DNA of 64,000 nucleotides from Rheinheimera sp. A13L (GTDB lineage Bacteria; Pseudomonadota; Gammaproteobacteria; Enterobacterales; Alteromonadaceae). Where the stretch lies: positions 1 through 64,000 of the forward strand of contig NZ_AFHI01000006.1 in the NCBI RefSeq assembly GCF_000217935.1. Direction: 5' to 3'. The translations under genes were made by a program, and so were the position numbers. The notes beneath the pieces are model-generated. The model was not told the DNA's origin. It saw only the letters and a list, made by a program, of their open reading frames with translations, and made no database searches. Shown in pieces: positions 43 through 8,550 of the stretch; the stretch's first letter is position 1; each line of letters opens with the position of its first letter.

Positions 43-1974
43 TTATGCTTTTTTCGATAAATCCAGCAGCAGCGCGTTTAAGCGGCTGACAAAAGTTGCA
101 GGATTTTTCAGGCTGCCACGTTCAGCTAATAAGGCCTGGTCAAATAATACTTCAGCCCATTGTTTAAACTGCGTTTCGTCCTGCACATCGGCAATATGTT
201 TGACCAATGCATGATCCGGGTTCAGTTCAAAAATAGGTTTCACGTCCGGTACTTTCTGACCCACAGATTCCATCAGCTTCATCATCTGCGTGCTCATATC
301 AAACTCATCAGTGACAATACAAGCCGGGCTGTCGGTTAAACGATGGCTGGTTTTTACGGCTTTGACCTGATCACCTAAAGCTGTTTTAAAACGTTCAGTC
401 ACAGCAGCAAATTGCTTCTCTGTTTCTTCCTGAGCTTTTTTCGTTTCTTCGTCATCCAGCTTGCTGATATCCAGACCACCTTTGGCGATAGAACGCAGCT
501 TTTTACCTTCAAAGTCAGTCAGGTGCTGCATTAACCATTCATCAACACGGTCGGATAACAGCAGGACTTCAATGCCTTTTTTACGTAACACTTCTAAATG
601 TGGGCTGTGTTTAGCGGCTTCAAAGCTGTCGGCAACGATAAAGTAAATTTCGTCCTGACCTTCTTTCATCCGGCTGACATAAGCTTCTAAGCTGACATTC
701 TGATCTGCGTTGTCATTATGAGTAGAGGCGAAACGCAGCAGCTTAGCTATGCTTTCTTTGTTGCCGGCATCTTCAGCAGGGCCTTCTTTCATCACCTGGC
801 CAAACTCGTTCCAGAAGGTCTGGTACTCGCTTTGATCTTCAGCTTTAGACATTTTCTCCAGCATTTTTAATACGCGTGAAGTACAGCCTTTACGTAAGCT
901 TTGCGTCACTTTGGTGTCCTGCAAAATTTCGCGGGACACGTTCAGCGGTAAATCGCTGGAATCCAACACACCTTTGATAAAGCGCAGGTAACTTGGCATA
1001 AACTGTTCAGCGTCATCCATAATAAACACACGCTGCACATACAATTTCAGGCCATGACGGGCTTCACGGTTCCACATATCAAAAGGTGCTTTTTTCGGCA
1101 CAAACAATAAACTGGTGTAGTTGGTATTACCTTCCACTTTGTTGTGAGTCCAGCTTAGTGGTTCAGTCCAGTCGTGCGAAATATGTTTGTAGAATTCCTG
1201 ATATTCGTTTTCAGTCACTTCTGATTTATCGCGCATCCACAGTGCGGTGGCTTTGTTGACCGCTTTCCAGAAGCCTTCAGTGGCAGGGATTTTTTCGCCT
1301 TCTTCGCCGTCCTGCTCTGGAGTGCCTTCCTGATACATTTCCACAGGAATGCTGATATGGTCAGAGTATTTAGTGACAATAGATTCCACTTTCCACTGAC
1401 TTAAAAATTCAGTTTCTTCGTCACGTAAATGCAGAGTGATTTCAGTACCACGGCTATTTTTCACAATAGGCGCAATGCTGTATTCTCCTTCCCCATTAGA
1501 TTCCCACTCTACAGCAGAATCGGCAGGCGCACCGGCTTTACGGGTTTTGACTGTCACCTTATCGGCAACAATAAAGGCAGAATAGAAACCCACACCAAAC
1601 TGACCAATCAGCTGAGAGTCTTTACTTTGATCGCCAGAGAGCTGACCAAAAAATTCTTTAGTGCCGGATTTCGCGATAGTGCCTAAATGACTAATCACTT
1701 CGTCCTGCGTCATACCAATACCGTTGTCGCTGATGGTAATGGTTTTAGCCGCTTCATCCAGACTGATACGAACTCTTAATTCGCCGTCATTGTCATACAG
1801 GCTGCTGTCGGACAAAGCTAAAAAGCGCAGTTTATCAGCCGCATCGGACGCGTTAGAGACCAGCTCACGCAGGAAAATTTCTTTATTGGAATACAGCGAA
1901 TGGATCATCAGCTGTAGAAGTTGTTTGACCTCGGCCTGAAAGCCGTGCTTTTGTTTTTGTACTGTCTCAGTCAT
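43..1974 (-). CDS. htpG: Molecular chaperone HtpG (Hsp90)
   Basis: A 643-residue bacterial Hsp90, full length for the family. It is a cytosolic ATP-dependent homodimeric chaperone that works with DnaK on late folding and stress clients. The N-terminal GHKL ATPase signatures are visible: [12 protein letters not shown] near residue 37, SDNGIGM at 82-88 and the lid-region glycine motif [11 protein letters not shown] at 124-134. The middle and C-terminal dimerisation domains follow without interruption. The ATG start has a strong AAGGAG site about 6 bases upstream. A sigma-32-like promoter lies about 90 bases upstream. It is last in the apt-dnaX-ybaB-recR-htpG order, as in E. coli, but is separated from recR by a repeat block and probably transcribed alone. 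Confidence 0.97.
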
Positions 1975-6343: not shown

Positions 6344-6364
6344 AAAAAAACCGCCAGCAGGCGG
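6344..6364 (-). terminator. Rho-independent terminator after the RiPP operon
   Basis: Read on the minus strand: CCGCC, loop TGCT, GGCGG, then seven T. It lies 23 bases past the stop of the 39-residue membrane protein and before apt. It therefore closes the upstream transcription unit, which may run from the HvfA-like precursor through the DUF2063 gene and this small gene. Confidence 0.8.
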
Positions 6365-6386
6365 TTATTTCACGCTCGAAAAAAGT

Positions 6387-6506
6387 TTAAGCGATGATCC
6401 GCAGCCAACTGATAATAGGTGCCAGACACAATAAAACCACGAAGGCTGTGACTAACAGCACTAACTGGCCGATACCAAAAGATTCTTTAAAATTTTCGTC
6501 TGCCAT
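6387..6506 (-). CDS. 39-residue single-pass membrane protein (unrecognised)
   Basis: A short ORF beginning MADENFKESFGIGQ, followed by a clear hydrophobic segment (LVLLVTAFVVLLCLAPII) and ending SWLRIIA. This is one transmembrane helix with a short charged N-terminus. The start follows the DUF2063 gene stop by 44 bases on the same strand, and a strong terminator follows 23 bases after its stop, so it is plausibly the last gene of the RiPP operon. The ribosome-binding site is weak (GAGCTCAG). I do not recognise a family. Other HvfABC loci often carry a DoxX-type membrane protein here, and this one is far smaller. An independent small gene is the alternative. Confidence 0.55.
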   Translation of the reverse strand: MADENFKESFGIGQLVLLVTAFVVLLCLAPIISWLRIIA

Positions 6507-6550
6507 GATCTGAGCTCATTCACTAAAAAGGTGGGACATGGTAATGAATT

Positions 6551-7288
6551 TTAGCCAGCTTGAAAAGCATGCACTATGCCTTTCTGCACAAAATCCGTCA
6601 GCAGGGTCTCAGCTCCTGTCGACAATTGGGCATAGTCCAGTTGAGGCACATAAGGTGATAGCAAATCGATAAGCCCTGCAAATGTAAGGCCCGGTTGCTG
6701 CTCCAGCAACTGCAGCAAGAGAGTTGTCAGTTGATTTAACGCAATAAACTTTACCTCATCCTGCGGATCCCGGTAGATCAACAAAAAGCTGGCTTGAGGT
6801 TCTGTCGGCTGAAACTCAGCGCAAATTTGCTGCACTGGATACTGATACGCCTGCACTGAAGCGAGTTCTGACAACTGCAATCTCTGCTGTTTCAGATCTC
6901 TTATGGTAAGTCCGGGTTCGGTTTTACGAGTCGCTAGCTCAAGTTCCAGCCATTCATAATGCGCCAGCTCCAGCAGAAACACCGGGTCATCAGGTTGTAA
7001 TTGATACTGGTGCTGTAAAAAATCTAAAAAACTTTGGGCTATGGATAAAAAGAACGGATTGTTGCAGCGATATTCCGCAAAAAATAGCTGTAAACGCAGC
7101 TGCCATGCCTGCTCTGTATACAAAGATTTCAACACAGGGAAAGCGCTGCAAACAAAACCTGAAACATTGTTAAACAGCAACTCCCGATAAACATCCAGAC
7201 GCTCCTGCTCTACATCCAGGGGTTTTTCGTGTTGCTCTGGCGAGCGTAAATAAGCGACAAAGTCCTGTTGAACCTGTTGGAATTTCAT
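6551..7288 (-). CDS. DUF2063 protein, HvfC/BufC-type RiPP maturation partner
   Basis: A 245-residue protein with the DUF2063 N-terminal helical domain: FVAYLRSPE near 11, then a helix ending DVYRELLFNNVSGFVCSAFP near 55, and a second all-alpha/beta part to the end. Family knowledge: DUF2063 proteins pair with DUF692 (MNIO) enzymes, bind or present the precursor peptide and are needed for its modification. Its ATG comes one base after the TGA of the MNIO gene, with GAGGG in the end of that gene as ribosome-binding site. Translation is therefore coupled and the two proteins are probably made at equal levels. Confidence 0.88.
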   Translation of the reverse strand: MKFQQVQQDFVAYLRSPEQHEKPLDVEQERLDVYRELLFNNVSGFVCSAFPVLKSLYTEQAWQLRLQLFFAEYRCNNPFFLSIAQSFLDFLQHQYQLQPDDPVFLLELAHYEWLELELATRKTEPGLTIRDLKQQRLQLSELASVQAYQYPVQQICAEFQPTEPQASFLLIYRDPQDEVKFIALNQLTTLLLQLLEQQPGLTFAGLIDLLSPYVPQLDYAQLSTGAETLLTDFVQKGIVHAFQAG

Positions 7289-7289
7289 T

Positions 7290-8138
7290 TCAGGCCCTCA
7301 ACTTGTTTTGCTTAGCTTGTTGCAAGCCACGAATATGCGCCAGCTCCAGTTGCAGTTGCTGCATATCAGGAATATTAAAATCCCGTTCCAGTAAAGTCGG
7401 AAATACACCATGATGCTGATAGGCCTCTGATAACAAGGCCCAAACCGGATCAGACACATCAGCACCATGGGTATCGATTAATAAGCTGTCACTTTGTCGG
7501 TAATGTCCGGCCACATGACCATAAGCGATACGCTCTGTAGGCAGGCCTTTTAAAAAATCCAGCGCATCGTAACTGTGATTGACTGAATTCACGTAAATAT
7601 TATTCACATCTAACAGCAGTTTACAGTCGGCCAGCTCCAGCACTGCATTGGTAAATTCAAGCTCCGACAATTCCTGACCGGGCGCGGCATAATAAGACAC
7701 GTTTTCGATGACTAAAGGTTGCTCAAGAATATCCTGCACCAGGCGAATACGCCCTGCGACATAAACTGCGGCTTCTTCGGTAAAAGGAATAGGCAGCAAA
7801 TCATACAAATGCCCTGCAGCAGAGCAATAACTTAAATGTTCACTGTACAATTTGATCTGATGTTCTTTTAAAAAAGCTTTGATTTGTTGAACAAAATCCA
7901 GATCCAATGGATCAGGGCTGCCTAAAGACAAAGACAAACCATGGCATATAAAGGGGTAACGTTCAGTTAACTGACGAAACTTTTTCTGATAGGCGCCACC
8001 ATAAGGCAACCAATTTTCCGGCGCTACTTCAAAAAAATCGATGTCGGTTTGAGGCTGTTCCAGCACAGTAGTGAGCATTTCACGTCGCAAACCCAAGCCG
8101 ACTTCTGTCGCTGTTAAACCCAAAGGGACATCAGACAT
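7290..8138 (-). CDS. MNIO (DUF692) peptide-modifying oxidase, HvfB/BufB-type
   Basis: A 282-residue TIM-barrel protein of the multinuclear non-heme iron oxidase family. These enzymes use two or three iron atoms and oxygen to rewrite cysteines in a ribosomal peptide. Candidate metal ligands sit in conserved places: FFEVAPENW (Glu37), FICHGLSLS (His66), YSEHLSY (Glu100, His101), VIENVSYY (Glu145, Asn146), LLLDVNN (Asp177), YGHVAGHY (His208, His212), IDTHGADV (Asp222, His224) and LLERD (Glu251). The start has a strong AAGGAGA site. It lies between the precursor and the DUF2063 partner. Product type (oxazolone/thioamide or thiooxazole) cannot be told from sequence alone. Confidence 0.92.
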   Translation of the reverse strand: MSDVPLGLTATEVGLGLRREMLTTVLEQPQTDIDFFEVAPENWLPYGGAYQKKFRQLTERYPFICHGLSLSLGSPDPLDLDFVQQIKAFLKEHQIKLYSEHLSYCSAAGHLYDLLPIPFTEEAAVYVAGRIRLVQDILEQPLVIENVSYYAAPGQELSELEFTNAVLELADCKLLLDVNNIYVNSVNHSYDALDFLKGLPTERIAYGHVAGHYRQSDSLLIDTHGADVSDPVWALLSEAYQHHGVFPTLLERDFNIPDMQQLQLELAHIRGLQQAKQNKLRA

Positions 8139-8149
8139 AAGCTCTCCTT

Positions 8150-8180
8150 AAAAGCAGTCAGCCTGCACTGGCAGGCTGAC
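8150..8180 (-). terminator. Attenuator-like hairpin between precursor and MNIO genes
   Basis: A perfect 10-bp stem, GTCAGCCTGC with GCAGGCTGAC and a four-base loop (8157-8166 and 8171-8180), lies in the 53-base gap after the precursor stop. On the minus strand it is followed by TGCTTTTAAGG, a weak U-run that merges into the ribosome-binding site of the MNIO gene. This fits a partial terminator or an RNA 3'-end stabiliser that keeps precursor message in excess over enzyme message. Confidence 0.65.
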
Positions 8181-8191
8181 ATTCTTCGGTG

Positions 8192-8509
8192 TTATACAGC
8201 GCCACCGCACTTGCCTTCACCACATTTAGCTTCTTTGGTTTTTTCTTTGTCTTTGCCGTCTTTTTTATCGCCACCACATTTGCCTTCACCACATTTGGCT
8301 TCTTTATCTTTGGCTTTGTCTTCACCACATTTGGCTTCTTTATCTTTGGCTTTATCAGCGCCACACGAGGCTTCTGCTGAGGCTAACTGGTAACCGGCAT
8401 TCAACTGATCAGCTGAAAACGGATTCGCATTAGCAGTTAAACTCAAAGTGGATAAAGAGCCCAGTACCAAAGCGCTGATGGCAACAGCAGTAGTTTTATT
8501 CGATTTCAT
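8192..8509 (-). CDS. HvfA/bufferin-like RiPP precursor, Cys/Lys/Glu repeats
   Basis: A 105-residue secreted peptide precursor. The chosen ATG (8509) gives MKSNKTTAVAISALVLG, a Sec signal peptide with a likely cut after Ala28 (TANA/NP), and has AAGGA eight bases upstream. A longer ORF adds 11 residues that spoil the signal peptide. The mature part is low complexity with six cysteines (49, 61, 73, 78, 96, 101) in EASCG, EAKCG (three) and EGKCG (two) contexts, separated by Lys/Asp/Glu spacers. EGKCG is the motif modified in the Haemophilus HvfA family to copper-binding groups. The two central repeats are near-identical at DNA level, a recent internal duplication. The MNIO and DUF2063 genes follow directly. 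Confidence 0.88.
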   Translation of the reverse strand: MKSNKTTAVAISALVLGSLSTLSLTANANPFSADQLNAGYQLASAEASCGADKAKDKEAKCGEDKAKDKEAKCGEGKCGGDKKDGKDKEKTKEAKCGEGKCGGAV

Positions 8510-8524
8510 ATCAATATTCCTTGT

Positions 8525-8550
8525 AGTTGCGTTAAGTTGCAATAAGTTGC
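8525..8550 (-). promoter_or_regulatory. Triple AGTTGC direct repeat before the RiPP precursor
   Basis: AGTTGC occurs at 8525-8530, 8535-8540 and 8545-8550, exactly 10 bp apart, one helical turn. The block ends 16 bases before the precursor start codon, upstream of its ribosome-binding site. A looser GTAG...CTAC inverted pair follows at 8556-8570. Helically phased repeats suggest a protein binding site, but they could also act in the 5' leader. No regulator gene is adjacent and no promoter core is clear. Confidence 0.4.

Follow-up and report, generated by a model that had tools for sequence, protein, structure and literature searches.

The first 64,000 nt of contig NZ_AFHI01000006.1 of Rheinheimera sp. 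A13L (the window; contig C66 in our numbering) carry an hvfABC operon encoding a cysteine-repeat precursor peptide, HvfA, and two maturation proteins, HvfB and HvfC. Our analysis indicates that this operon is probably one half of a split regulon under the control of an extracytoplasmic function (ECF) sigma factor and a DUF3379 protein acting as its anti-sigma factor. The other half, composed of hvfX (a DoxX-family gene), the ECF sigma gene and the DUF3379 gene, would be located beyond the apt-dnaX-ybaB-recR-htpG block. Direct computational results are the identities of these genes, their order in relatives, the promoters preceding hvfA, hvfX and the sigma gene, the finding that promoter, sigma and DUF3379 are missing together, and the invariant positions of DUF3379. 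The ECF control of hvfA through the DUF3379-linked sigma is well supported by sequence comparisons. The operon comprises the following features:

8192..8509, minus strand: hvfA, KCG-repeat precursor with a putative export signal, 105 aa
7290..8138, minus strand: hvfB, MNIO maturase, 282 aa
6551..7288, minus strand: hvfC, DUF2063 partner with a recognition element (RRE) for ribosomally synthesised and post-translationally modified peptides (RiPPs), 245 aa
8558..8584, minus strand: ECF-sigma-type promoter GAAAT-N17-GGTCT, 48 nt ahead of the hvfA ATG

Judged by family models, the operon is almost certainly a captophorin (HvfA-class EGKCG/KCG-repeat) biosynthesis cluster of an already known kind. 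The precursor contains six cysteines, five in KCG motifs and one in SCG, and its N-terminus, MKSNKTTAVAISALVLGSLSTLSLTANANPF, resembles a Sec-type signal as judged by eye. It passes the NCBIfam model NF050137 (KCGExKCG_twice; 51.4 bits, cut-off 19.5) and fails the strict HvfA equivalog NF050188 (26.5 bits, cut-off 95), scores that place it in the HvfA class, though not among HvfA equivalogs in the strict sense. A Pfam search with the precursor gave no match. HvfB exceeds the cut-off of the HvfB-family maturase model NF003818 (438 versus 360 bits) and is the only PF05114 match in the genome. It shares with its closest solved structure, 3BWW (233 bits), the motifs HGLSLSLG, ENxSYY, LDVNNIYVN, AGH, DTHG and LLERDFN, taken as metal-site motifs. 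Iron-binding residues given for HvfB-type enzymes are N175, D242 and H244 (PMC13419390). HvfC matches NF050145 (264.8 bits, cut-off 142), both PF09836 and PF22106 (DUF2063 and NGO1945_C), and the structure 3DEE (45.5 bits). The hvfB and hvfC genes are separated by 1 nt, and hvfA and hvfB by 53 nt.

The first-pass annotation had described a Cys-repeat precursor, an MNIO enzyme and a DUF2063 partner in one HvfABC-type copper RiPP operon. The NF050137, NF003818 and NF050145 matches, together with those to 3BWW and 3DEE, bear this out and point to the captophorin/oxazolin class (PMC13097082). The search of relatives that it proposed for conserved hvf genes was likewise positive: hvfB is present in 22/22 Rheinheimera genomes, and each of the 22 orthologous loci (L002-L023) has a precursor with 4–10 KCG motifs upstream of it. 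A Buf1-type bufferin was considered and rejected, as the precursor has no Pfam match where DUF2282 is expected, and HvfB reaches 266.6 bits against the BufB equivalog cut-off of 310.

The hvfA promoter is the first element linking the operon to its putative regulator. GAAAT-N17-GGTCT occurs once in the window, where 0.09 matches are expected, and at least one match appeared in 8 of 100 shuffles. The hvfA upstream regions of the genus have GAAAT(TTT)-N17-GGTCT in common; its strict form was seen upstream of hvfA in 20 of the 22 genomes, and one further genome (G016) carries a GAAAG form. A wider scan started from 80 named hvfB loci, 68 of which had hvfA and at least 440 nt before the first KCG codon, used as the scan anchor (59 from Alteromonadales and nine others, with orders assigned from record titles); the remaining 12, with hvfA not visible or incomplete, were dropped. 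In the 59 Alteromonadales loci, exact promoters were found 31 times at N17, four times at N16 and never at the nine other spacers between 12 and 22. When up to one mismatch was allowed at N16/N17, the motif was present in 55 of the 59 and in none of the nine other loci, with no match on the reverse strand. Single-mismatch matches alone are weaker evidence, because the other spacers also gave 0 to 8 of the 59 loci. The layout of the motif is that of an ECF-sigma promoter. A sigma-70 promoter for hvfA was considered and rejected: the consensus scan returned one site, on the opposite strand and inside hvfB.

A large regulon defined by the strict motif in strain A13L was rejected too, since the genome has five matches compared with 23 in the backwards control, and three of the five lie inside open reading frames (ORFs). 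The match before hvfA looks real, and so perhaps does one upstream of a gene for an exported glutathione peroxidase, but none of the others. The glutathione peroxidase match lies about 73 nt before its gene, and the motif precedes the same gene in G001 (L162, L217: 1501-1527). Similar matches, at the level of the motif sequence alone, were recorded in five more genomes of the genus.

The first-pass annotation had also stated that the locus lacks DoxX and sigma/anti-sigma genes, and that its regulation and membrane partner therefore look different. This is contradicted by the genome, in which the missing genes lie at the very end of another contig, C51 (L224), and hvfA has a matching ECF-type promoter. 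The features concerned, the first three of them off the window, are:

G000:C51 62790-63446, minus strand: hvfX
G000:C51 62140-62793, minus strand: ECF sigma gene
G000:C51 61437-62171, minus strand: DUF3379 gene
43..1974 (window), minus strand: htpG, after which the contig breaks off, with hvfX-sigma-DUF3379 presumably next

The DoxX gene passes the HvfX model NF050144 (204.8 bits, cut-off 80). The sigma factor exceeds the cut-offs of PF04542 and PF08281 (sigma-70 regions 2 and 4) and of NF009170 (239 bits, cut-off 197), and the third gene matches PF11859 (DUF3379) with 228.1 bits against a cut-off of 33.2. The window contig starts just beyond the end of htpG, and it seems that an assembly break separates htpG on C66 from hvfX on C51, the two contigs adjoining each other. 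In four unbroken loci of close relatives (L225, L226, L227, L231) the order is hvfABC-apt-dnaX-recR-htpG-DoxX-sigma-DUF3379, and DoxX lies 6.3–6.6 kb downstream of hvfC. In the window, a YbaB-like ORF recognised by eye is located between dnaX and recR, as in E. coli, and the order of apt, dnaX, recR and htpG is likewise consistent with E. coli. In Arsukibacterium tuosuense (L086) hvfABC is followed without interruption by the same promoter, DoxX, the ECF sigma gene and DUF3379. In A. perlucidum (L084) the promoter is followed by a thioredoxin-CcdA pair, an opposite-strand gene, and then DoxX, sigma and DUF3379. The thioredoxin-CcdA-like pair stands immediately after hvfC, with the motif directly before it (L084, 6645-7794).

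A single clear orthologue of the sigma factor is encoded in every one of the 22 genomes of the genus (56–63% identity, next best at most 35%). Sigma and DUF3379 matches occur together in 22/22 genus loci and 30/30 loci of the wider family, and in the ten regions whose gene order was mapped the two genes are immediate neighbours. The 30 family loci are the best-scoring DUF3379 loci and not a random draw; within them GAAA(G/T)-N17-GGTCT precedes the sigma gene exactly in 17 and with up to one mismatch in 22, and ten other spacers gave no exact match. In the genus, GAAAG-N17-TGTCTCT stands before hvfX in 5/5 loci examined, A13L included; the hvfX-sigma promoter of A13L is a variant outside the strict motif.

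These arrangements also bear on the possibility that hvfABC is a stand-alone A-B-C cluster like fon, with hvfX-sigma-DUF3379 an unrelated group lying near it by chance. The fon cluster, already described, is a minimal one consisting of A, B and C only (PMC13097082), and a minimal cluster without DoxX would have had precedent there. In a second clade of the genus (L228-L230) the sigma-DUF3379 pair is located elsewhere, beside neither hvf nor hvfX, and DoxX does not adjoin it. Against a chance neighbourhood stand the contiguous Arsukibacterium locus with its shared promoter, the A13L hvfX score above the HvfX-family cut-off, and the covariation of the hvfA promoter with DUF3379 described below, and we regard such independence as very unlikely.

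The split regulon is also supported by co-occurrence. Among 295 family genomes, DUF3379 was detected in 240 and an hvfB-like gene (at 1e-40) in 176, of which 153 have DUF3379 and 23 do not. A first batch combined 20 genomes possessing both genes, each from a different genus, with 20 of the 23 DUF3379-negative genomes. On the positive side, the promoter was found before 17/17 hvfA genes with full upstream sequence (13 exact), two hvfA being cut by contig ends and one genome showing no hvfA; on the negative side, it was found in 0/16, and four further genomes showed no hvfA. In a second batch of DUF3379-positive genomes, the promoter was exact in 11/11 genomes of genus group g18 (one at N16) and in G105 and G102, and had one mismatch in G037; no hvfA was seen in G097. 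The DUF3379-negative G242 lacks the promoter; so did two batch-one members of its group g18, G163 and G253. Altogether the promoter is present in 31/32 DUF3379-positive and 0/17 DUF3379-negative genomes (Fisher 2.8e-12, uncorrected for shared ancestry). Within g18 the figures are 11/11 versus 0/3, and by genus 21/22 versus 0/3, a tally that g18 enters only among the positives. Two DUF3379-negative genomes (G068, G218) were left out of the promoter count. Genomes with a weak (G121, G278) or middling (G246) DUF3379 match lack the promoter as well. G246, in addition to its weaker DUF3379 match, has a sigma copy that is diverged and interrupted by an internal stop (G246:C16:23858-24382), as if the sigma/DUF3379 system were decaying.

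The same genomes help to decide which sigma factor would read the promoter. Another ECF sigma, RpoE or RpoE2-ChrR, might do so, with sigma-DUF3379 merely co-distributed. The genus holds several other ECF sigmas with about 25–35% identity to the query, and the -10 element of hvfA, GGTCTA, resembles the RpoE type (the Shewanella rpoE promoter is GAACTT..GTCTAC; PMC4336711). The same source assigns GAACTT to Shewanella RpoE and TGATC/CGTAAT to RpoE2, not GAAAT/GGTCT (PMC4336711), and a motif of the hvfA type directly precedes the DUF3379-linked sigma gene itself. Moreover, promoter, sigma and DUF3379 are absent together: the sigma orthologue is absent from 21/21 DUF3379-negative genomes tested, 19 of which retain matches to other ECF sigmas (at most 32% identity) and two of which have none. 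We therefore consider recognition by another ECF sigma improbable and favour the DUF3379-linked one.

Several observations weigh against the proposed wiring or limit its reach. One genome of the genus, G010, has no strict motif before hvfA, and in DUF3379-positive G070 the promoter has two mismatches and was counted as lacking. Eight of the 30 family sigma loci have no such promoter, and a wrong spacer of 13 also gave 8/30 at one mismatch. For 21 of 22 genus loci, the 1 kb before the sigma gene yielded no GAAAT/GGTCT match at N16/N17 with up to one mismatch. The AlphaFold2 model of DUF3379, built from two sequences, was uninformative (pLDDT 38.7). The Fisher value above takes no account of shared ancestry. 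A tally of 21 named genomes gave 13 with promoter and DUF3379, five with neither, three with DUF3379 only and none with the promoter only; these genomes overlap those of the batches (L123 is G105), so the counts are not independent. The five with neither are L085, from a Rheinheimera, and four from other orders. The three with DUF3379 and no hvfA promoter at up to one mismatch are L112, in which hvfA may be misassigned, L115 and L132. Finally, the distributions of the genes differ. The 23 family genomes with an hvfB-like gene and no DUF3379 mean that other control exists, and DUF3379 is found without an hvfB-like gene in 87 genomes; DUF3379 is wider than hvfB, the sigma-DUF3379 pair therefore has duties beyond captophorin, and its main role may lie elsewhere.

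The layout of the DUF3379 protein is what one would expect if it were a membrane-bound anti-sigma factor carrying a sensor in the periplasm. An alignment of 55 sequences (22 from the genus, 30 from the family, two from Arsukibacterium, and the A13L copy counted a second time from L224) contains only three His or Cys positions conserved in at least 90%: H114, C158 and H167 (L084 numbering), each invariant. A single hydrophobic stretch at about 78–98, preceded by basic residues, lies before all three, which are thus in the predicted periplasmic part, the topology being assigned by eye. The word DUF3379 was absent from the open-licence PubMed Central literature, and no mention of the sigma-DUF3379 pair was found in the available parts of that literature on ECF sigmas with MNIO, DoxX or copper; subscription papers were outside both searches. 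DUF3379 is likely to be an anti-sigma factor of a hitherto undescribed class. In the model that we propose, the sigma factor would read GAAA(T/G)-N17-(G/T)GTCT before hvfA and before its own operon, and membrane-spanning DUF3379 would hold the sigma factor until its predicted periplasmic domain, sensing copper (or oxidants) through the invariant His-Cys-His set, releases it. The fuller proposal that DUF3379 senses copper through these residues and, with the ECF sigma, controls captophorin production across Alteromonadales, often from a separate locus, is advanced tentatively.

Copper is a candidate signal, with oxidants as its main rival: the wiring could be the same and both the signal and the purpose be oxidative or hypochlorous acid (HOCl) damage to the envelope. 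In Haemophilus influenzae, HOCl is the signal for RpoE2-HrsE, whose regulation reportedly reaches an operon with a DoxX-like protein that includes COG3220/UPF0276 and DUF2063 members (PMC7907618). The co-members noted above, thioredoxin-CcdA (L084) and the exported glutathione peroxidase of Rheinheimera, look redox-related. On the other side, a metal site would fit the three invariant His and Cys residues, even if a single cysteine could sense oxidants too, and captophorins bind copper (PMC13097082). The oxidant alternative is, in our estimate, somewhat unlikely.

The product of the operon can be described by analogy with published systems. In captophorins, HvfB-type enzymes and their HvfC-type partners convert KCG cysteines to 5-thiooxazoles, and the products bind copper (PMC13097082). 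Of the two roles named in the first-pass annotation, metallophore or copper protection, the published data lean towards the latter, with copper binding and protection from stress (PMC13097082). The active mixed-valent diiron centre of HvfB is attained only with HvfC (PMC13419390), and EGKCG-type clusters show varied combinations of RiPP, MNIO, DUF2063 and DoxX genes (PMC12452194). In strain A13L, HvfC, as the RRE partner, would present the HvfA precursor to HvfB, a diiron MNIO, which would convert the KCG cysteines to 5-thiooxazoles with a loss of 4 Da per KCG. The captophorin, presumably exported by Sec, might then bind Cu(I) in the periplasm and sequester it.

The span of 6344-8550 covered by the first-pass annotation also includes a short ORF and a terminator downstream of hvfC, and an additional hairpin lies within the operon:

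6387..6506, minus strand: 39-aa single-transmembrane protein between hvfC and apt, judged a neighbour outside the hvf system (ORF 6506-6387)
6349..6366, minus strand: intrinsic terminator downstream of the operon and the 39-aa ORF (6366-6349)
8157..8180, minus strand: intercistronic hairpin between hvfA and hvfB, 10-pair stem

The 39-aa protein was examined as a DoxX stand-in and rejected as such. It is encoded by a real gene, placed right after hvfC and found by pattern in 22/22 orthologous genus loci and 0/6 paralogous loci; it is under purifying selection (pooled pN/pS 0.29 over the genus loci), and neither NCBIfam nor Pfam gave a convincing match or a named family for it. Its signature is M-x-D-x-NFK[ED]. 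A family-wide search with the protein gave matches in 89 of 295 genomes and 19 of 52 genera (E 0.01), a few of the 89 being weak and doubtful. Among these 89, the gene adjoins hvfB in 47, hvfB is elsewhere in 17, and 25 have no hvfB at 1e-40. Of 20 neighbourhoods of the gene that were inspected, 11 have it before apt without hvfABC, eight have hvfABC as well, and one (L078) has neither. Of the 80 named hvfB loci (L081-L160), 61 contain the 39-aa gene, 60 contain both it and apt, and hvfABC lies upstream of apt in 61, including Rheinheimera, Pseudoalteromonas and Shewanella. The apt neighbourhood is thus a shared chromosomal address of hvfABC; the 39-aa gene belongs to that address, and hvfABC is placed upstream of it. 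That this protein takes the place of DoxX as the membrane partner is hardly credible, given its occurrence without hvf and the genuine HvfX of strain A13L.

A hairpin with a T run similar to the terminator follows the 39-aa ORF directly in 22/22 genus loci (by eye). The hvfA/hvfB hairpin, also compared by eye, keeps its stem unchanged or almost so in 11 of the 12 close-clade loci L002-L013 (the exception is L011) and is absent in L014-L023, where hvfA abuts hvfB; it may set the precursor level above that of the enzymes. Repeat expansion of the precursor was noted in L020, with a long unbroken EGKCG run, in Pseudoalteromonas aurantia (L105), with 24 KCG motifs, and in L075, with 54-nt steps. 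A second hvf-type locus, of a published type, occurs in 5/22 genus genomes (L024-L028), its precursor fused to EF-hand-like repeats by eye, and four of these loci have a DoxX gene nearby (Pfam check on L024 only). A third, distant MNIO is encoded in G006 (L029; 33% identity, different neighbourhood).

The captophorins are a large, newly named class, and the published material available to us contains little on how EGKCG-type clusters are switched on. The shared promoter and the likely sigma/anti-sigma pair, detected from sequence and checked by joint absence, provide concrete targets for mutation in the form of two short motifs, a sigma factor and three residues. The membrane gene and regulator of a seemingly minimal cluster can be located a few genes off or past a contig break, and gene-neighbourhood surveys may therefore undercount such systems; DUF3379 control from a separate locus, if true, would escape them.

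The wiring is a variation on a known theme, in which an ECF sigma governs the genes for an MNIO-modified peptide; it departs from the described cases in its candidate anti-sigma family and in the division of the genes between two loci. The oxazolin hvfABCX system of H. influenzae has the HvfA, HvfB, HvfC and HvfX families in common with it (PMC13419390), and the gene for the H. influenzae ECF sigma RpoE2 likewise lies apart from the hvf-like operon with DoxX on which RpoE2 is reported to act (PMC7907618). HrsE is a 67-aa cytoplasmic, ZAS-like anti-sigma factor (PMC7907618), whereas the Rheinheimera counterpart would be DUF3379, a membrane protein whose His-Cys-His set is predicted to be periplasmic. 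Unlike H. influenzae, strain A13L has KCG repeats with DKAKDKEA-type spacers and an operon tied to apt. Fontiphorin fonABC and the captophorins show the same minimal A-B-C set of precursor, MNIO and PME1/DUF2063 partner, with the KCG cysteines as 5-thiooxazole sites, but a sigma-DUF3379 pair and a split regulon are not described in the available part of that source (PMC13097082). The Buf_EGKCG/oxazolin landscape includes the same precursor class, with RiPP, MNIO, DUF2063 and DoxX genes in varied combinations; there, sigma/anti-sigma genes are reported at Buf1 and not at Buf2, and the part available mentions none for EGKCG clusters (PMC12452194). The Caulobacter sigF-NrsF/Buf1 system is similar in having an ECF sigma with a negative regulator in the sigma operon, DUF692/DUF2063/DoxX targets and a response to metals (PMC3511200). 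It differs in its DUF2282 precursor, in NrsF, a DUF1109 protein (6, taken as transmembrane segments), and in its promoter, GTAACC-N16-CGAA (PMC3511200).

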